DNA of 25,236 nucleotides, taken from positions 1 to 25,236 of the IMG/VR virus record IMGVR_UViG_3300042904_000074; one strand, written 5' to 3'. This document shows, piece after piece, positions 4,136-23,714 of the stretch. This stretch comes from a virus. The notes under the pieces were generated by a model. The model searched no databases. It was not told where the DNA came from and saw nothing but the letters and a program-made list of their open reading frames with translations. Position 1 is the stretch's first letter. The number at the start of each line of letters is the position of its first letter. Both the position numbers and the translations under genes were made by a program.

Positions 4136-4438
4136 GTGGCGTTCCATAACGCAAAGAATACAAGACAAGCTAGAAGAGGACTCATTCCGAACTACTGTGA
4201 GATTCCCGACTGTACGTTTACGGCCCTTGTCACAAAGCATAGGATCAAGCCGGGACGCAGAGGAGGGAAGTACATAGCAGGTAACGTGATCGGGCTTTGT
4301 CCCAACTGTCACGTTCTTGCAGAGCAGGGGCATTACTCACAGTTTGAGTTGTTTCAGATTGTACAGAAACGATTGAGGGAAGAGAATCTAAGGAGTAGGG
4401 AAGAAGCATATGGCGGACTTGACTTGGCTACAGGCTAA
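4136..4438 (+). CDS. HNH endonuclease-family protein, likely packaging-associated
   Basis: A small (100 residue) HNH protein starting with GTG; the SD AAGG overlaps the preceding stop. The zinc-binding beta-beta-alpha-metal fold is indicated by C21/C26 and C55-x2-C58. The HNH triad is H35 (KHR), N50 (GNVIG) and H59 (CPNCH). HNH proteins encoded near terminase and portal are established partners of the terminase in cos-type packaging of several phages. Its place two genes after the terminase and overlapping the portal by 29 bases fits that role. A free-standing homing endonuclease is less likely because the gene is translationally embedded in the packaging operon. Confidence 0.86.
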   Translation: MAFHNAKNTRQARRGLIPNYCEIPDCTFTALVTKHRIKPGRRGGKYIAGNVIGLCPNCHVLAEQGHYSQFELFQIVQKRLREENLRSREEAYGGLDLATG

Positions 4439-6512
4439 AGAAGCGAACGACTACGCAAGCGGTGCGTTGCACCTTCCGCGTGGGCCACGATCTGTGATGG
4501 TACAGCAGGATGGTCGTGATCTTTTCGCGGAGATTGAAGAGAACAACGAGCGTCTTGCGAATGATTTCGCGAGGGATAGACGGCAGAGATTAGGAAGCGG
4601 AGATGTCTTCGCTGCTATGCCACGTCTGTATAGTCCAACAGATTTCTTTACACAGCAGAATATTCCGTACGATATCAATAAGGAGAACGACCGCTTCAAG
4701 CTTTACCAATGGTTGGATCTCTTCTATCGTACTCACTACTTGATCCCAATCCTCGTTGACATCTTCACGAGGTTCCCTCTCGTTGGACTTGAGTTCCACT
4801 CGCCTGACCCTCAGCTTAAGAAGTTTTATGAAGAGTTGTTCTTCGAGCGTCTTGACTATGAGCAATTCCTCGTGGACTTGGGCCGTGAGTACTGGACGTT
4901 AGGACAAGCGTTCCCACTTGGCCACTTCAATGAGACGCTAGGTATCTGGGAAGAGGAAGAACTTATTGATCCCACAATGGTTAAGGTACGTCGTTACCCG
5001 ATCATTGGTGGTGAGCAGTTCTCATTTGCAGCAGACGGTATGAAGGAACTACGAGAGATCGTAGAGAAGCAGCAGCCTAAGGAGATCTACCACCTTATTG
5101 AGCGTGAGTATCCTGAGTGGATTCCCTTCCTTAAGAACAAGAAAGACATTCCGGTTTCGAGCGTGCTTCTAAAGCAGGTAGCTTTCAAGGCTAGCCCGCG
5201 AGATCTGTACGGTACACCTATCCTTCTTCGCGCACTGCGCACCTTACTCCACGAAGAGAAGTTGATGGCATCTCAAGATGCTATCGCTGAACGTCTTTAC
5301 TCTCCGTTCGTACTTGTTAAACTAGGTATCATGGATATGGGACAGGATCGTGGCCCGTACATCCCTGGCCCTGCCGAGCTTCGAGACGTGCGTGATGATA
5401 TTGACATCGCTCTAGCCTCTGACTTCAGGCTTATGGTTCACAACTTGGGCATCGATGTCCAGAATGTATTCGGCCGTGAGCAGATGCCCCGTCTTGATCA
5501 GGACTTCGATAGAATCGAACGCCGACTCATGCAGACGTTCGGTGTCAACCCGTCACTCCTCTCAGGTGGTGCTGCAAGCCAGCCTTACGCCTCCTCAGCC
5601 CTTCAGGCAGAGTTCCTTAACCAGATCCTTAGAACGTACCAAGGCTTCCTTAAGAAGCATTACCAGGCTCGTGCTATGATTGTGGCTGAGGCTCAGGAGC
5701 ACTACGACTATGAGAAGCGTGGAGAGCAGCGCATCCCGATCAAGGAAGAGGTTCTTGAGTACGATCCTGAGACTGGTGAAGAGATCATCGTAGAGAAGAA
5801 CAAACTTCTCATCCCTGAGCTACGCATGAAGGTGCTAGACTTGAGAGATGAGGCTACGCAACGACAATTCTTGCAGGCATTGAAGCAGCAGGGCGTTCCG
5901 ATTCCTGACTCTGACATCGCCATGGGTATGCACTTCGACTTCGAGGAAGCTCTTGGTCGTGTACAGGAAGAGATGATTCAGAAGACTGTAGCTCAGCAGG
6001 AAGCTAAGGTGAAGACTTACGACATTCTCTCCGCTAAGGGACTACCTATCCCTGCCGACTTAAAGGCAGAGATCGAGGGGCAGCAAGGATTCGCTGGGCC
6101 ACAAGGCCCGACCGAGCTTTCGGTCAATCCTCCTGGTCGAGGCGATGTCATTCCTATGCCGCCTCCTCCTGGTGGTACCCCAGCGATTGGGCCGAACAGT
6201 CCGATGCGAGGAATGCGGCCTGAGGTATCGGATGAACGTAGTCCTATCCCGGCTCCTGGTCAGGTACCAAACAACACTCCACAACTTCCCGGAGTACCCG
6301 GTCAGCCTGGTTTGATGGGCATCCCAGGCGCACCTACACCGGCAATCGGCCCACCACCACGTCGAACACACGTCGAGGAATCTACAGTTAGGGCATTACC
6401 ACGCAAGCAGGCGCAAGAATTTTCGTTGCCGAGCTTGACAGATGGTCTCGACGCTGATACTATAAGTGAGGATTCAGATGACAGACGAGACGAAGGAGCC
6501 TCAGACACCTGA
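4410..6512 (+). CDS. Portal protein
   Basis: The portal is the dodecameric ring at the capsid vertex through which DNA enters and leaves. Its 700 residues are long for the family because of a disordered tail. The first 470 residues or so show a typical portal layout. An acidic N-terminus leads to a region of LPILVDIFTRFPL type, followed by a mixed core and then long helices after MQTFGVNPSLLSGG (a stretch common in portals, near residue 375). About residues 557-651 are Pro/Gly-rich and collagen-like (GVPGQPGLMGIPGAP; PAIGP occurs twice), followed by an acidic end. The start ATG 4410 lies inside the HNH gene with AGGGAAG upstream, indicating translational coupling. I rate the family call good, based on overall pattern and position. 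Confidence 0.87.
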   Translation: MADLTWLQAKEANDYASGALHLPRGPRSVMVQQDGRDLFAEIEENNERLANDFARDRRQRLGSGDVFAAMPRLYSPTDFFTQQNIPYDINKENDRFKLYQWLDLFYRTHYLIPILVDIFTRFPLVGLEFHSPDPQLKKFYEELFFERLDYEQFLVDLGREYWTLGQAFPLGHFNETLGIWEEEELIDPTMVKVRRYPIIGGEQFSFAADGMKELREIVEKQQPKEIYHLIEREYPEWIPFLKNKKDIPVSSVLLKQVAFKASPRDLYGTPILLRALRTLLHEEKLMASQDAIAERLYSPFVLVKLGIMDMGQDRGPYIPGPAELRDVRDDIDIALASDFRLMVHNLGIDVQNVFGREQMPRLDQDFDRIERRLMQTFGVNPSLLSGGAASQPYASSALQAEFLNQILRTYQGFLKKHYQARAMIVAEAQEHYDYEKRGEQRIPIKEEVLEYDPETGEEIIVEKNKLLIPELRMKVLDLRDEATQRQFLQALKQQGVPIPDSDIAMGMHFDFEEALGRVQEEMIQKTVAQQEAKVKTYDILSAKGLPIPADLKAEIEGQQGFAGPQGPTELSVNPPGRGDVIPMPPPPGGTPAIGPNSPMRGMRPEVSDERSPIPAPGQVPNNTPQLPGVPGQPGLMGIPGAPTPAIGPPPRRTHVEESTVRALPRKQAQEFSLPSLTDGLDADTISEDSDDRRDEGASDT

Positions 6513-11780: not shown

Positions 11781-12011
11781 ATGTCTGACCCAACTAAATT
11801 ACTTGTGATTGCAATTGAGGCAACTGCTGAAGGACTGAGAGCACAAGCTTTAGAAGCTTATGACCGGAGCAGGAAGATTCGAGATCGAGATGGTACGGAG
11901 AATGAAGAGGACGGTGATGATTATGAACTTGGTTTTGCCGAGGGTCGGCACCTAGCTTTAAACACTGCGTCTGAACGTCTCTCAAATCTCGCTAGGGCTT
12001 TGGGTGAGTAA
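11781..12011 (+). CDS. Small unknown protein with DYELGFAEG motif
   Basis: A 76-residue, mostly helical, charged protein. ATG 11781 directly follows the previous stop, with GGAGAG upstream. The central DDYELGFAEGRHLAL has the Y-x2-G-[YF]-x2-G pattern that recurs in the small proteins at 15406-16637, hinting at a distant relationship. Its stop shares a base with the start of the IMPDH-like gene. Function unknown. Confidence 0.74.
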   Translation: MSDPTKLLVIAIEATAEGLRAQALEAYDRSRKIRDRDGTENEEDGDDYELGFAEGRHLALNTASERLSNLARALGE

Positions 12012-13036
12012 TGGAACTTTTCTCACAGATCACTAGATCACCTGTGAAGTCAGGGATCGCGTTGTCATTTGATGACGTACTTCTCCGACCTAAAAGAGGC
12101 ATTCTGTCGAAGCGTGCAGAAGCAGACATTTCCTCAGATTTGGTAGAGGGTATTCGTCTTGACGTACCTATTGTTTCTGCACCTATGGCTAGCGTTACGG
12201 AACGTTGGATGGCGATGGCTATGATCCAGGCTGGTGGTTACGGTATCATTCATCGCTTCATGACTATTGAAGAGCAGCTTAAGCAGATTGAGCAGCCTGA
12301 GAACTTGGCGCATTGGGCACGGCAAGAGAACATCAAGTACAAGGGTCTTGCTATCGGAATCAATGAGGGTTATGAGCGCTGGCAGAAGTTGTATGAGTAC
12401 GGTGCTCGTGTCTTCTGTCTTGATGTAGCTCATGCACATCACGAGACTGTCATGAGTTTCATCGACAACGCTAAGAACGTGTCGGATAGCCTGCTGATCG
12501 TGGGTAATGTTGCTACGGCTGAAGCTGCAAATGAGTTAGCTACGAAGGTTGGTGGCATCGCTGCTATCAAGGTAGGTATCGGGCCGGGTGCAGCTTGCAC
12601 TACCCGTGAAGTTACAGGCTTCGGTGTACCTCAGCTTACTGCAATCATGGATGTAGCTGATGCGCTTCGAGGTACGGGCATCAAGATCATTGCCGATGGT
12701 GGCATCAAGAGCAGCGGAGATATCGTTAAGGCTCTAGCTGCTGGTGCAGACACGGTGATGTTGGGTCGTCTTCTTGCTGGTGCCGATGAGTCGCCACACC
12801 CTGGACTCTACTGGGGCATGGCATCCTACCGCGTCAATGGCCACCACGCACCTGAGGGTGTCGAGGGTGTAGTTGAGCGCACCGGCCCAGTAGGTAGGAC
12901 AATCAAGCAACTTGCTTGGGGTATCAAGTCTGGTGTATCATACGGTGGAGGTACAGATCTTGATGGCCTCCGCAGGAATGCAGAGTTCGTACGAGTAACA
13001 CCACTAAGCATGGGAGAATCAGGGACAAGACTATGA
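12011..13036 (+). CDS. IMP dehydrogenase/GMP reductase family protein without CBS domains
   Basis: A TIM-barrel purine nucleotide oxidoreductase of 341 residues. The catalytic loop is G189-I-G-P-G-A-A-C196-T-T-R, with C196 as the thioimidate nucleophile. The phosphate-binding strand [11 protein letters not shown] (227-237) and [15 protein letters not shown] (281-295) are typical of the family. IMPDH makes XMP from IMP; GMPR makes IMP from GMP. The sequence looks IMPDH-like after the catalytic loop, yet it has no CBS pair and lacks the Arg-Tyr flap used by IMPDH to hydrolyse E-XMP. CBS-less relatives such as GuaB3 and GMPR are alternatives. Reaction direction is therefore open. It is coupled to both neighbours. 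Confidence 0.88.
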
Positions 13037-18066: not shown

Positions 18067-18077
18067 GAACTAGTCGT

Positions 18078-18104
18078 ATCGGCCTCTAATAAGTGGAGGT
18101 TGAT
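18078..18104 (+). promoter_or_regulatory. Hairpin covering the SD of the cysteine protease gene
   Basis: Bases 18078-18086 (ATCGGCCTC) can pair with 18096-18104 (GAGGTTGAT), giving nine pairs with two G-U, around the loop TAATAAGTG. The SD GGAGG (18095-18099) lies in the 3' arm, and the ATG begins at the next base. The segment 18081-18097 matches 19341-19357 at 15 of 17 bases. This suggests translational control or a shared promoter. Confidence 0.5.
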
Positions 18105-18872
18105 ATGGCAGCAGATCAGGGTCTAGGTCGTAGGGTTCCTACCGACTGGCGACACACAGAAGAGTATCCTTGGCGTAATCTCGAACCAAAGACGGTTTCG
18201 TACGTCAAGCGAGTGATGGTTTTACCGTATTGGCATTGGTCGCATGATCAGGGCTTCGAGGGCGCATGTGTAGGTTTTGGTGGATCGCTGGTAATGGCGG
18301 TTACAAACCTTATACAGCGTCGAGACTCAGATCCACCCATCAAGCCATACGCAGTACGTTACGATTCTTGGTGGCTTTGGGATCGTTCAAAGGAGATTGA
18401 TGAATGGAGTGACACCAACCCAGGCGATAGCAACGGCACTTCTGTGCGTGCTTCTATGGATATCCTTCGCACTTTGGGGCATGTACAGGTTGCAAACACT
18501 TATACCGGACGCGCTATTGACCCTAAGCCCGTTATAACGAATGGTATCGCTGCTAATCGTTGGGCATGGACTGTTGATGAGATGCGTACAGCCGTCTCTC
18601 AGGCTCTTCCGGTCTCTATCGGCGTCAACTGGTATGCTAACTTTGACAGTCCGCGTGAAAAGCGCTATAATGAGTATTGGATTGGAGAAGGAGACCTTGG
18701 ACGCATTCGTGGTGGGCACTGTGTAGCGGTTTATGGTGCTGATGACGATAGGCAAGCGTTCAGAGTCAAGAATAGCTGGGGCCGCTCGTATCCACTCGTA
18801 TGGTTGCCGTACAAGACAATGCAACGGTTGATCAGTGAAGATGGAGAAGCGGCTATCATTACAGACAGATAG
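18105..18872 (+). CDS. Papain-like (C1 family) cysteine protease
   Basis: 255 residues from ATG 18105 (GGAGG five bases upstream). The catalytic set of C1 peptidases is present in order: Q49 (oxyanion hole) and nucleophile C55 in DQGFEGACVGFG, H205 in GGHCVAVYG, and N223 in VKNSWG. There is no signal peptide and no clear pro-domain. Position directly ahead of the virion genes suggests processing of virion proteins; cleavage of host proteins is an alternative. C1 proteases are unusual in phages, so the role is open. The length is near a mature papain domain. Confidence 0.88.
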   Translation: MAADQGLGRRVPTDWRHTEEYPWRNLEPKTVSYVKRVMVLPYWHWSHDQGFEGACVGFGGSLVMAVTNLIQRRDSDPPIKPYAVRYDSWWLWDRSKEIDEWSDTNPGDSNGTSVRASMDILRTLGHVQVANTYTGRAIDPKPVITNGIAANRWAWTVDEMRTAVSQALPVSIGVNWYANFDSPREKRYNEYWIGEGDLGRIRGGHCVAVYGADDDRQAFRVKNSWGRSYPLVWLPYKTMQRLISEDGEAAIITDR

Positions 18873-18881
18873 GATCCAATT

Positions 18882-19070
18882 ATGGCAGTAAAACCAGGGA
18901 AGAGAGCAGCACGTCGAAACGAGAGAGCAGAACGCTACCGTAAGCGCGTACCTCGGCAACCAGAAGGAATGCCAATGGGTAAGCATCTGGCAGGGTTCAA
19001 GGGGAGTAAGACAGATGTTCCTTGTTACTGTGGAGGATGCAGTGCGCGGGCCAAGTCTGTGGCTTCCTGA
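18882..19070 (+). CDS. Small basic protein with CxCGGC motif
   Basis: 62 residues from ATG 18882, with AGGA about nine bases upstream. The N-terminal 27 residues are strongly basic (KRAARRNERAERYRKRV). The end has VPCYCGGCSARAK, which could hold a metal with partners. Nucleic-acid binding is plausible by charge only. Its last 56 bases overlap the next gene in another frame. Confidence 0.62.
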   Translation: MAVKPGKRAARRNERAERYRKRVPRQPEGMPMGKHLAGFKGSKTDVPCYCGGCSARAKSVAS

Positions 19071-19320
19071 CGAAAGTTCTTATCATCGTCACGACTTGTT
19101 TGCCTCATTAGACGTGAATAAGTACCATGATATGGTCGATTATGTTGAGCAGCGCTTAACCAGACTGCTCAACAATCGCCATAGTTACCCGATGTGGCCT
19201 AGAGATGGAATGAATCCTCAGGACGATTGGGAGAAAGAAGAATTTCAGCCTCTTCGCCACATGTATTATCAGAATACTCTGATGTGGATCAGGCTCCTGC
19301 GTCGTCTTCGAGATATGTAA
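19015..19320 (+). CDS. Unknown protein (101 aa)
   Basis: ATG 19015 has GGGGAG eight bases upstream. The product is rich in His, Tyr, Arg and Leu, with helical stretches (YHDMVDYVEQRLTRLLNN, LMWIRLLRRLRDM). It may be an assembly or adaptor protein; I recognise no family. The long overlap with the previous gene is unusual, but both frames look genuine. A 63-base gap dominated by a hairpin follows. Confidence 0.7.
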   Translation: MFLVTVEDAVRGPSLWLPDESSYHRHDLFASLDVNKYHDMVDYVEQRLTRLLNNRHSYPMWPRDGMNPQDDWEKEEFQPLRHMYYQNTLMWIRLLRRLRDM

Positions 19321-19321
19321 C

Positions 19322-19380
19322 CCTAGTTCCTTGTAGAAACGGCCACAAATAAGTGGAAACGTTTCTATCCTAGGACTAGG
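19322..19380 (+). promoter_or_regulatory. 59-base nested inverted repeat covering the SD of the first virion gene
   Basis: Three helices stack. CCTAGT (19322-19327) pairs with ACTAGG (19375-19380), extended by CCT/AGG past a bulge. TAGAAACG (19334-19341) pairs with CGTTTCTA (19360-19367). CCAC (19343-19346) pairs with GTGG (19353-19356) around AAATAA. The only SD-like bases (AGGACTAGG, 19372-19380) are in the 3' arm, and ATG 19384 follows three bases later. No T run follows, so it is not a standard terminator. Confidence 0.62.
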
Positions 19381-19383
19381 CGA

Positions 19384-19755
19384 ATGGCAAAAAGACGAAG
19401 CGGTAGAGCTACCGCGTTTTGGAATGGAGAGGCTGCTGGTGCCAACTCTTTTTCAGCAGCAGTAGAGTTAATGCGTGGGGCAGAAAACCTCACGATTTTC
19501 GTATCTGCTTCGGCAGCTACTACAGTATCTCTACAGGTTGCGCACTCTAGCGATACATCGGCAGAGGGCATCCTTAAAGACGACAGCAATGCCGATTGGA
19601 TGGATGTTTATTACTTGAATACACCCGTTCAGTTGGTATTGGCCGGTGCAGGAAAGGCAGCTTTGCTTGTTCCTGATTTCGGGCCAGGTTGGGTGAGATT
19701 GAAGACTTCTGGGGCAGCTACTTTGACAGCGGGCTACGAAGCCGCTACAGGGTAA
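19384..19755 (+). CDS. Putative virion protein, beta-rich (123 aa)
   Basis: First gene of the virion block. After a basic start (MAKRRSGR) come alternating beta strands rich in Ala, Ser, Thr and Val (LTIFVSASAATTVSLQVAHSSD, VRLKTSGAATLTAGYEAATG), a composition common in phage decoration, collar or fibre proteins. No specific family assigned. Translation may depend on opening the preceding hairpin. Confidence 0.72.
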   Translation: MAKRRSGRATAFWNGEAAGANSFSAAVELMRGAENLTIFVSASAATTVSLQVAHSSDTSAEGILKDDSNADWMDVYYLNTPVQLVLAGAGKAALLVPDFGPGWVRLKTSGAATLTAGYEAATG

Positions 19756-19788
19756 TGTTCCATTACGCGCTCATAACGATTGAGGATT

Positions 19789-19804
19789 ACAAATAAATGG
19801 CAAC
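19789..19804 (+). promoter_or_regulatory. Motif ACAAATAARTGG across the start of the next virion gene
   Basis: ACAAATAAATGGCAAC (19789-19804) matches ACAAATAAGTGGAAAC (19345-19360) at 14 of 16 bases. It includes the ATG at 19797, and GAGG lies 11 bases upstream of that ATG. It may be part of a repeated promoter or RNA signal, or a chance match around a start codon. Confidence 0.3.
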
Positions 19805-20685: not shown

Positions 20686-21081
20686 ATGGCCGACAATGTG
20701 AACATCACACCCGGTACGGGTGTCGTTGTACGCACAGAAGAGCTAGCCGATGGATCTCAGGCACAGGTTATATTCCAGGCCGAGATGTTTCCGTCTGCGC
20801 TCGATCTCGCTGCTGTAGCTGATCACACCCTTACAGTGGCGGCTACCGCTGTCGGCCTTCCTAACATCCCCTCTGATGCCACACATGCACTACTTAGTGT
20901 AGAAACCGATGCCTTGCGTTGGCTTGATACCGGAACTAACCCTACAGCTACTCAGGGTCATAAGTTAACGGCTGATAGTTATTTCTGGATCTCAGGGCGT
21001 CAGCGCCTTTTGGACTGGAAGATGATTCGCGTCAATGCCACGAGCGCAACAATTATGGTTACCTACTATAAGTACGTGTAA
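20686..21081 (+). CDS. Putative virion protein (131 aa)
   Basis: AAGGAGG lies four bases before ATG 20686, the strongest SD of the region. The opening NITPGTGVVVRTEEL and the later ALRWLDTGTNPTATQGHKL followed by a final beta strand (ATIMVTYYKYV) resemble small phage structural proteins as I remember them. Its stop overlaps the start of the beta-helix gene. Exact location in the virion is unknown. Confidence 0.76.
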   Translation: MADNVNITPGTGVVVRTEELADGSQAQVIFQAEMFPSALDLAAVADHTLTVAATAVGLPNIPSDATHALLSVETDALRWLDTGTNPTATQGHKLTADSYFWISGRQRLLDWKMIRVNATSATIMVTYYKYV

Positions 21082-23714
21082 TGAGAACACCCTGGAAGAA
21101 GATCATCGGCCTTACCCTATCCGTCGCCATAGCAGGCGGCGGTATTGCTATTTGGCAAACTACTACACAGGGTGGTGGCGGGGGCGCACCGGCAGGTACA
21201 GCCAATGTGTGGATGGATACCAATGGTGGCACCTGCACTTACTCGGCTTCACCCGTTGTATACAATGATGGCGCTGCGTGTAGTACCATTGATGCTGGTT
21301 GGGATCTTATGTCCGCAGGTAATACAATGCGGATTAAGAATGGTACGTACACGACGCAGCAAGTGATTAGCGGGAATAAGGCATCAAATACCTTTGTCAC
21401 TGGCGAGAGCAAAGCGGGCGTCATCTTCAACGCTACCTCTACACCAACAACCTGTGGTAGTTGGGGTGAACCTAATATCTGTATAACTGCACAGCGACTT
21501 GTGTTATCCGATGTAACCTCAGCTACGGGTGCGGAGAGTTCCAACAGCGGTGACGTGATCGGGATTAATGCGTCGAATGTCACCTTCAATAATGTGGATT
21601 CTGACACTGACTTTGGTGGATCTTATGTTCACGCCGCAGCCACTAACTTCACTTGGAATGGCGGAACGCTTGGTAGTGATACGCCAGGTCTACGTGCTTG
21701 CGGCGTTGGAGTATCAGATGTGTCCCTTTGGGTTGATGCTGCGAACCTAACGCTCAACAACCTCGTCTTTAATCCAGTAGAAAACACCGTCATTAGCGAT
21801 AACGATCCTAACTGTTTGGGCGATAGCCATCACTTCGATACAATTCGGTTGCAAGGAAATACGTCGGGTTTCAAGCTCACCAACTCGTATTTCGTTTCTA
21901 ACTACTCGTCTCATGGTGGAGCTACCACTGGTCACCTGTTCGTTACCGGTGGTACTTCAAATAACGCTATCATCTACAACAACTACTTTGGTGCAGCTAC
22001 ACCACCGGGCAGTGGAAACGGTGTTTGGGACTTTTCTAACACTTGTACGGGAATGCAGAACTGGTTCGTTGGCTACAATACGTTCGCAGGAGGAATTGTC
22101 AATTGGGGTGCTTGTTCATCTACAGGAGATATTTGGGTTGGTAATCTCGGCCCCGATGCAGCTAAGGTAGGTACCTGTGCGAATCACATCAAGAACGTAT
22201 GGCAAGCTGCAACAGGGACTTGCGGAACCGACATTAACGTTGCTGGTACGTCGTGGACACCTGATAAGGATCCTGTCACCGCAACTAATAACCTTGATTT
22301 CAGTATCAATTCTGGATTAGGTGATGCTATTCTTGAAGCAACTTCACCAGCAATCGACGCTGCTGAGACTCCTGGTGCATCTGATCATTGTACTGATGTG
22401 GCAACCATTAACTCGCTTGATCGACTTTCAGTAGTTAGACCACAGGGGTCAATCTGTGATGCAGGATCTAATGAGCGCATCGTTATAGCGGCCAACATCT
22501 GGGTTGATAGCAATGGCGGAACTTGTACAGATAGTGCAACCTTAGTGGTTTATAGTGATTCAGCGGCCTGTGGTAGTCTTGATGCTGCTAATGATACCTG
22601 TGAAAATGGAGACATCGTTTACGTAAAGACAAATGCTTATCCTTCTCAGGATATCACCGGCTCGAATAGCCGTAGCTCTGCATGTACTATTCAAGAAGCA
22701 CCAGGAGAGACAGCCACAACTACCTCTATTTGGTTACGTGATACTACTAACTGGTTGACGATCAAAGATATCTCAAATATTGGCGGGGTGACAGGCCACA
22801 ATGGCGGTGACTGCTTTAATGGATCTGTCCCTGATGTTTCTGTCTGCGTACATGGTGACAATATCATCCTCGACAATGTTGACGTTCCTGGGCCTTATGC
22901 CCATGTAGACTTACAAACTAACAATAGTGTCTGGAAGAATAGCGACTTCGGTACCGAAGGGAATACCCAAAGTATCGATTGCGACTTCAACGATCAGCAG
23001 CCGATCACGATTTCAGGTTCTACCAACCTTTTAATTGATAAGATGAACTTCTGGGAAGTACACGGTGACGACCCGACTTGTGACATCCACATCGAGACGT
23101 TCCGGTTGTGGGATGGTAGCGATGGCGTTACCATTTCGAACAGCTACTTCGTACCGGAGAGCGGTGACAATACCGCTCGCATCTCAAGCTCCGCAGTCCA
23201 CAACTGCGAAACTACACCTCCTGATTGCAACAAGAATATTCGTATTATTAATAACTTCTTTGGTGAGCATTTGTCTGGACTTGCTGCGCCCGATGTGTTC
23301 TTTGGCGATAATCGCCCGTGTGAGGGTTGGGTAATTGCTTACAACTTCTTGAGCAATGGCGTTATCTACAACTGCTCGACTCAACTTAATAATATCTCAG
23401 TTGGCAACATGGGTACCAATACAGGTGGTTGTTTGTTTAGCGGTACAGGAGCAGTGAATACCGATAACCTCTGGTCAGCTACCAGTCATGGAACTTGTGC
23501 AGGGGATGCCTGGGTAAATGGTACTTGTGCGAGCTTTGTATGTAATTATAGCACCTATAATCTAGCTGGCGACGGCTATCATTTGACGGCAACCTCACCG
23601 TCAATTAATGCAGGCGAGACTACGCGCTGTAATACATATACTGGACTTCTAGACTTCGAAGGAGACTCAAGAACGGGCGATTGTGACGCTGGCCCGGATG
23701 AGTACGTACCGTAA
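21081..23714 (+). CDS. Duplicated right-handed beta-helix protein with signal-like N-terminus
   Basis: 877 residues. A basic start (MRTPWKK) and a hydrophobic segment (about 8-25), then TTTQGGGGGAPAG, look like a signal peptide or membrane anchor. Two similar halves follow: NVWMDTNGGTC at 42 and NIWVDSNGGTC at 472, ending in CDAGSNER (459) and CDAGPDEY (868). Each has the Asn/Gly/Ser repeats of pectate-lyase-like beta helices (NSYFV, NNYFG/NNFFG). I count 30 Cys. It is probably a spike, fibre or polysaccharide-binding protein; no catalytic residues are assigned. There is no SD, so translation is likely coupled through TAATG. Confidence 0.8.
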   Translation: MRTPWKKIIGLTLSVAIAGGGIAIWQTTTQGGGGGAPAGTANVWMDTNGGTCTYSASPVVYNDGAACSTIDAGWDLMSAGNTMRIKNGTYTTQQVISGNKASNTFVTGESKAGVIFNATSTPTTCGSWGEPNICITAQRLVLSDVTSATGAESSNSGDVIGINASNVTFNNVDSDTDFGGSYVHAAATNFTWNGGTLGSDTPGLRACGVGVSDVSLWVDAANLTLNNLVFNPVENTVISDNDPNCLGDSHHFDTIRLQGNTSGFKLTNSYFVSNYSSHGGATTGHLFVTGGTSNNAIIYNNYFGAATPPGSGNGVWDFSNTCTGMQNWFVGYNTFAGGIVNWGACSSTGDIWVGNLGPDAAKVGTCANHIKNVWQAATGTCGTDINVAGTSWTPDKDPVTATNNLDFSINSGLGDAILEATSPAIDAAETPGASDHCTDVATINSLDRLSVVRPQGSICDAGSNERIVIAANIWVDSNGGTCTDSATLVVYSDSAACGSLDAANDTCENGDIVYVKTNAYPSQDITGSNSRSSACTIQEAPGETATTTSIWLRDTTNWLTIKDISNIGGVTGHNGGDCFNGSVPDVSVCVHGDNIILDNVDVPGPYAHVDLQTNNSVWKNSDFGTEGNTQSIDCDFNDQQPITISGSTNLLIDKMNFWEVHGDDPTCDIHIETFRLWDGSDGVTISNSYFVPESGDNTARISSSAVHNCETTPPDCNKNIRIINNFFGEHLSGLAAPDVFFGDNRPCEGWVIAYNFLSNGVIYNCSTQLNNISVGNMGTNTGGCLFSGTGAVNTDNLWSATSHGTCAGDAWVNGTCASFVCNYSTYNLAGDGYHLTATSPSINAGETTRCNTYTGLLDFEGDSRTGDCDAGPDEYVP
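21204..22490 (+). repeat. Beta-helix half 1 (protein-level duplication)
   Basis: Codes for residues 42-470 of the beta-helix protein. Landmarks shared with half 2: NVWMDTNGGTC, SDNDPNC before a DTIRL strand, NSYFV, NNYFG, and CDAGSNER at the end. The DNA itself has diverged, so the duplication is old. Confidence 0.7.
22494..23711 (+). repeat. Beta-helix half 2 (protein-level duplication)
   Basis: Codes for residues 472-877. The matching landmarks are NIWVDSNGGTC, GDDPTC before an ETFRL strand, NSYFV, NNFFG, and CDAGPDEY at the end. Confidence 0.7.

Follow-up and report, generated by a model that had tools for sequence, protein, structure and literature searches.

Predicted hairpins over the ribosome-binding sites of two nearby phage genes, one of them with counterparts in related phages

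The stretch from 19322 to 19380 of virus record IMGVR_UViG_3300042904_000074 (the complete record of 25,236 bases, here called the window, and probably a fragment of a larger genome) is, according to RNA folding, a hairpin that hides a ribosome-binding site (RBS) and resembles the start-site hairpins of phage T4. The explanation that we favor, tentatively, is that ribosomes open it as they complete translation of the 101-aa gene upstream. A stronger case of this general kind is predicted at the start of a protease gene located 1.3 kb upstream of the 19384 gene. Judged by sequence comparison, this second hairpin is conserved with compensatory changes; it had been overlooked by the sequence-only reading that drew attention to the first.

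Table 1. Positions of the genes, hairpins and motif copies in the window
Feature	Position	Strand	Details
Hairpin before the 19384 gene	19322-19380	+	22 bp in three helices; apical loop AAAUAA
Outer helix	19322-19327/19375-19380 plus 19329-19331/19372-19374	+	9 pairs
Middle helix	19333-19341/19360-19368	+	9 pairs
Inner helix	19343-19346/19353-19356	+	4 pairs
Motif copy AAATAAGTGGA	19347-19357	+	one mismatch; apical loop and 3' side of inner helix
Protease gene hairpin	18073-18109	+	uninterrupted 16-bp stem with 5 G-U pairs; loop AUAAG
Motif copy TAATAAGTGGA	18087-18097	+	exact; loop and 3' arm of protease hairpin
Terminase gene	left end of window		
Portal gene	4410-6512		phrog_2833, E 1e-161
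Papain-like cysteine protease gene	18105-18872	+	phrog_16701; Peptidase_C1 below cut-off
Upstream gene	19015-19320	+	101 aa; stop TAA 19318-19320
Downstream gene	19384-19755	+	123 aa

The portal protein of the window shares about 40% identity with its counterparts in Gordonia phages and Mycobacterium cluster C phages, and genes of nucleotide metabolism are encoded as well. The main genes between 17704 and 24892 run in the same direction with short gaps, and a shared transcript is therefore likely. ATG 18105 was preferred over GTG 18093 as start of the protease gene, which is separated from the 19384 gene by a 62-aa gene and the 101-aa gene. No family match to the 19384 product was obtained in the profile search, and its structural model was a generic beta-sandwich of low confidence. 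The sequence-only reading had called it the first virion gene, a designation that lacks support because the portal gene (13 kb upstream) and the terminase gene lie far upstream. A virion role for the 19384-19797 neighborhood is plausible, since a homologue of the next gene (19797) occurs in contig L133 near a gene that, from its sequence, may encode a major capsid protein. Among phage records, no DNA relative of the window and no protein match to the 19384 or 19797 products was found, and genome contigs yielded no match to the portal or 19797 products; the collections scanned may omit very close relatives of the window. Elsewhere, the window carries a dehydrogenase-like gene (12011-13036; phrog_9582, E 1e-83), whose sequence resembles IMP dehydrogenase/GMP reductase, and a gene (21081-23714) for a protein of 877 aa whose N terminus looks like a membrane anchor. 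This protein has two similar halves, and the motif NVWMDTNGGTC/NIWVDSNGGTC stands at the beginning of each. It had no family matches; its sequence would suit a beta-helix protein that is secreted or part of the virion.

Folding energies, all calculated for naked RNA at 37°C, amounted to -26.3 kcal/mol for the bare 19322-19380 element and -27.6 kcal/mol for 19315-19400. None of 200 shuffled sequences was as stable as the latter (z -4.7), nor was any shuffle as good as 19318-19386 (z -5.7). The proposed fold of about 21 bp in three helices within 59 bases thus passed the folding analysis that had been suggested for it, with 22 pairs, including one G-U, in three helices. As had also been described, the hairpin nearly fills the gap: it occupies 59 of the 63 nt between the upstream stop codon and ATG 19384, its 5' arm beginning 1 nt past the stop and its 3' arm ending 3 nt before the start. 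It is the seventh most stable non-overlapping 62-nt stretch on the + strand of the window. Among the 46 gene starts of the window, which, like all starts in the comparisons over whole genomes, were called with a simple script, the 19384 start is the second most structured by z. Among 795 starts in nine records it ranks 13th, with 13 starts at z -3.67 or lower, so a window of 46 genes would not be unusual in having one start of this kind. The element is equally stable as - strand RNA and accordingly gives no sign of strand-specific selection. In line with the earlier reading, which had noted the lack of a T-run, none flanks it on either strand; an intrinsic terminator was rejected on these grounds, and the terminator scan does not list the hairpin. 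A search with Rfam 15 covariance models gave no match at this site (E up to 5), and no tRNA was detected.

The 3' arm contains the SD-like sequence AGGA (19372-19375), 8 nt before ATG 19384, and this is, in agreement with the earlier description, the only SD-like element with good spacing for this start. Both AGGA and the AGG at 19378-19380 are nearly always paired, with a pairing probability of >0.99 for three of the four AGGA bases. The AUG is unpaired with a probability of approximately 0.4, i.e., it is partly paired, so that the notion of a buried ribosome site holds for the SD and only in part for the start codon. The cost of opening the region from -14 to +3 was 7.9 kcal/mol (rank 14 of 46) with 60 nt of upstream context, an ordinary value; this context cuts the 5' arm of the hairpin. 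With longer context, it rose to 13.9–14.0 kcal/mol (rank 4 of 46).

Homologues of the 19384 gene were identified in four phages: G008 (L015, 43% identity), G001 (L009, ~35%), G002 (L010, ~35%) and L135 (33%). The protease gene precedes the homologue in G008, G001 and G002, and homologues of the 101-aa gene precede it in G001 and G008; no homologue of the 101-aa gene was found in G002. In L135, a dehydrogenase-like gene similar in appearance to that of the window is located upstream (5041-6045). The gaps before the homologues measure 39 nt in G008, 42 nt in G001, ~20 nt in G002 and 74 nt in L135, and none of the four harbors a hairpin comparable to 19322-19380. Gap folds had z values of ~+0.5 to +1.3 in G008, +0.8 to -1.4 in G001, +0.8 in G002 and +0.2 in L135. 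The opening costs of the homologous starts were no higher than average, ranking 116 of 124 in G001, 76 of 112 in G008 and 210 of 240 in G002. A 6-bp match (UCAGAA:UUCUGA in G001, UUAGAA:UUCUAA in G008) was not accepted as covariation because it lies partly in Leu-Arg-Lys codons of the upstream gene and is not part of the predicted G008 fold. The sequence-only reading had proposed to look for covariation across homologous phages and had regarded a lack of compensatory pairing as refuting its hairpin; with no comparable fold in any of the four relatives, such pairing is lacking. On the basis of the three to four relatives known, the 19322-19380 hairpin would be a local variation private to the window phage. 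Of the translational switch that had been proposed, the RBS-hiding hairpin stands as a prediction and the switch appears plausible, while conservation fails at this site.

At the protease gene, the predicted stem pairs both the SD GGAGG (18095-18099) and ATG 18105. Its calculated stability was -21.5 kcal/mol as + strand RNA and only -6.0 kcal/mol as - strand RNA, which marks it as a structure of the messenger rather than a DNA inverted repeat. The fold recurs in the same layout in two of three relatives: G001 forms an 18-bp stem with two bulged bases (-27.3 kcal/mol, z -4.7), and G002 a hairpin with a 23-nt loop (-21.8 kcal/mol, z -3.8) in which the SD occupies the upper and the start codon the lower stem. 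In G008, a weaker hairpin ends at the SD, and the start ranks 46 of 112 in opening cost. When the 3' arms of the window and G001 were aligned by hand on SD and AUG, 8 of the 14 comparable pairs were unchanged, 3 had changed on one side, and 3 on both sides with pairing kept, a count that compares two sequences only. Pair counting on the MAFFT alignment was set aside because that alignment departs from the structure. The opening cost from -14 to +3 was 17.8 kcal/mol in the window, 23.7 in G001 and 17.2 in G002, in each case the highest of the genome (of 46, 124 and 240 starts, respectively). When region and context were chosen differently, the ranks ranged from 1 to 4 in the window, from 1 to 3 in G001 and from 1 to 26 in G002, which makes G002 the softest case. 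ATGs anywhere at least as costly amounted to 1.2% in the window, 0.07% in G001 and 0.8% in G002. Three phages keep the start of the protease gene hidden despite divergence in the protein and in the stem sequences. The replacement of stems with the hiding preserved would point to selection for keeping the protease off until some event and, if borne out by experiment, would represent a first post-transcriptional control point for this phage group.

A survey of 65 wider relatives of the protease revealed the start-hiding fold only in G001 and G002, and a feature of the whole family was therefore rejected. The best z among these wider relatives belonged to L127, where the hairpin lies upstream of a doubtful start; the protease start of Streptomyces phage Muntaha had an opening cost of 10.4 kcal/mol, with no motif seen. 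The proteases themselves differ in segment order. In G001 (L009 341-1147, ~64920-65726) the His-bearing segment precedes the Cys-bearing segment, an order that differs from that in the window (His segment at residues 171-216, Cys segment at 46-172) and G008; all segments are present in G001 despite this change. Inside the protease coding sequence of the window, positions 18643-18671 match the sigma-70 consensus at 12 of 12 bases (TTGACA, 17 nt, TATAAT). This sequence is not kept in G008 or G001; G001 and G002, for their part, contain several promoters with a perfect consensus.

The two start sites share an 11-nt motif, TAATARGTGGA. With at most one mismatch it was found at six of six sites (two genes in three phages), within 50 nt of the start, compared to 0.17% of random 50-mers. 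Before the protease gene it is located at 18087 in the window, 64914 in G001 and 12067 in G008, the last copy sitting within the upstream reading frame. Before the 19384 homologues it is kept in two of the four relatives, G001 (TAATAGTTGGA, 65968) and G008 (TAATAGGTGGA, 13128). It lies on the coding strand at every site, with its first base 18–37 nt upstream of the start codon, and outside the motif the gaps otherwise align poorly. Its persistence may be due in part to the SD-like sequence that it includes (AGGUG, GUGGAGG). G002 has no clear copy, with 4 mismatches at the protease gene and 3 at the other gene, and the motif was not seen upstream of the portal gene or other virion genes. A scan of viral contigs for the pattern TAATARGTGGAGGTTNNNATG returned G001 and six contigs of other phages; none of the six has a start-hiding fold of the protease type, and one stretch (L060/L065) does form a short CACUU-AAU-AAGUG stem. 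In G001, exact TAATAAGTGGA also occurs outside the protease region at 44263-44273 (L032), just upstream of a perfect TTGACA-TATAAT promoter and a 195-aa gene starting near 44346. Another hairpin-hidden start of this phage (L030, 4966-5268, - strand) has UAAUA in the loop region (UUCCC-UA-GCACC-UAAUA-GGUGC-AA-UGGGAA, with the AUG within the 3' arm) and an opening cost of 14.3 kcal/mol, among the three highest of 124.

How might the 19384 start become accessible? On a polycistronic transcript the hairpin would hide the SD and make independent initiation difficult. A ribosome positioned on TAA 19318-19320 would cover about 13 nt after the stop and with them the outer helix's 5' strand (19322-19331), thereby freeing AGGA 19372-19375; the inner hairpin could remain folded and bring stop and start close together. 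When the ribosome footprint was modelled on this stop codon, the opening cost fell to 5.2 kcal/mol, as against 14.0 without it; the genome median is 6.0. The drop of 8.8 kcal/mol was the second largest among 124 gene pairs with gaps of 15–75 nt (median drop 0.4). Because the cost falls near the median and the drop ranks second, coupling to the upstream gene is our first choice for this hairpin. Fold, buried SD and drop in opening cost are the computed part of the case; a shared transcript, the action of the ribosome and coupled output as the purpose are what we infer. An upstream ribosome could thus suffice in the model where a phage protein or RNase had been suggested as opener, and a special factor may be unneeded. 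Coupling is most efficient at short distances, and here stop and start are 63 nt apart; in compact genomes, moreover, 5' arms often lie near an upstream stop, which counts against coupling. With the hairpin missing from four relatives, in two of which the same upstream gene precedes the start, coupling via this fold is at best private to the window phage, and it leaves the conserved loop motif unexplained. In the same ranking of drops, the protease hairpins of G001, the window and G002 were 1st, 4th and 16th, with 5' arms 2, 6 and ~7 nt from the upstream stop, respectively. Their opening cost stayed at 9–17 kcal/mol with the modelled ribosome on the stop, indicating that coupling alone is insufficient at the protease gene and something more is needed there. 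This could be a promoter in the arm as in T4 gene e, an RNA-binding factor, or processing.

The main rival to coupling, which we consider unlikely, is a timing device as in T4 genes e and soc: early read-through transcripts would keep the hairpin and stay untranslated, and a later promoter in or after the 5' arm, with the conserved TAATAR as a part of it, would give hairpin-free transcripts. T4 e, soc, 49 and I-TevI carry hairpins at their starts, and late promoters in the DNA of the 5' strand of gene e yield well-translated transcripts lacking the hairpin (PMC3014915). The TAATAR of the motif, A+T-rich and placed in the loop before both genes in each of the three phages, and a TATCCT box at 19366, found by a consensus scan from which the phage's own promoter specificity may differ, would fit such a promoter. 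However, TAATAR lacks the final T of the usual -10 box, inspection of the six motif copies revealed no common -35 element, and the motif does not precede other virion genes such as that for the portal. It also fits poorly as -10 element at the protease gene, since the motif ends 7 nt before the ATG in the window and G001, and a transcript starting 6–7 nt after TAATAR would lose the very SD that is kept. The motif could instead act as RNA, with UAAUARGUGGA in the hairpin loop bound by a protein or sRNA of phage or host that holds or releases the protease and 19384 genes together. The recurrence of the motif far above the random rate and the strict + strand nature of the protease hairpin favor this operator, and in T4, gp43 recognizes a hairpin that has UAAC as its loop (PMC3014915). 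Against it, at least two of the six copies, those preceding the 19384 homologue in G008 and in G001, have not kept a pairing partner for GUGGA, the G002 protease hairpin has no recognizable motif, and part of the motif is no more than SD-like sequence. We consider the operator rather improbable and know of no binding protein for it. Slightly less probable is its generalization, in which UAAUARGUGGA in a start-site hairpin would be a translational operator of this unclassified phage group, one factor would recognize it and control the protease and the following small protein together, and the arms would turn over freely while loop and start-hiding are kept.

That the 19322-19380 hairpin has no function and is a chance fold in a 63-nt gap is held to be improbable to a similar extent. 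About 1.6% of starts score as well by z, so that ~0.7 would be expected among 46, and all four relatives with the homologous gene do without the hairpin. Against chance stand the z of the bare element, the presence in its loop of the motif common to the conserved protease hairpin, and the precise fit of its 5' arm to the upstream stop codon. Least probable is an RNase III-type processing site or 5' stabilizer, where a cut in the stem would create a new 5' end for the downstream message. A total of 22 bp and an intercistronic position fit phage RNase III sites generally; the stem is interrupted, however, and kept in no relative, and at the protease hairpin the SD would be lost if the 3' arm were cut.

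In T4-like phages, hairpins at gene starts are well documented; to our knowledge, little is known of them in large actinophage-like, mostly metagenomic viruses. The hairpins of T4 e, soc, 49 and I-TevI likewise pair the SD and/or AUG in a helix at a phage gene start, and they too are present in some relatives and absent in others (PMC3014915). The same sequestration is predicted here for the AGGA of the 19384 gene and for SD and AUG of the protease gene. T4 differs from the window in phage group, genes and sequence; where T4 gene e has late promoters in the 5' strand, the consensus scan gave no convincing promoter here, and phage specificity may differ. The gp43 operator of T4 is likewise a hairpin preceding a start, and the conserved A-rich loop in the window could serve as a protein target in a similar way; loop and stem differ between the two (PMC3014915). 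Structures opened by ribosomes at an RBS have precedents in f1 VII/IX, MS2 coat/lysis and rpmI-rplT (at +52 nt), which share with the 19384 gene an inhibitory fold over the downstream start and a 5' part of that fold within reach of the ribosome finishing upstream (PMC12548453). In contrast to these, coupling in the window is a modelled one, would span a stop-start distance of 63 nt, and is not kept in relatives. The SAS/ESAS elements of cluster K mycobacteriophages, 13-bp GGGATAGGAGCCC sequences located 3–7 bp before starts in 11–19 copies per genome, are, like TAATARGTGGA, short SD-like sequences in one orientation before a subset of starts, sometimes with inverted repeats (PMC3203893). They lie closer to the start than TAATARGTGGA, measured from the beginning of the motif, and are more numerous than its two main sites per phage; GGGATAGGAGCCC was not present in the gaps before the protease and 19384 genes. 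Whereas the authors of the ESAS study found little support for pairing in the mRNA (PMC3203893), folding of the protease hairpin described here argues for a structure formed as RNA.
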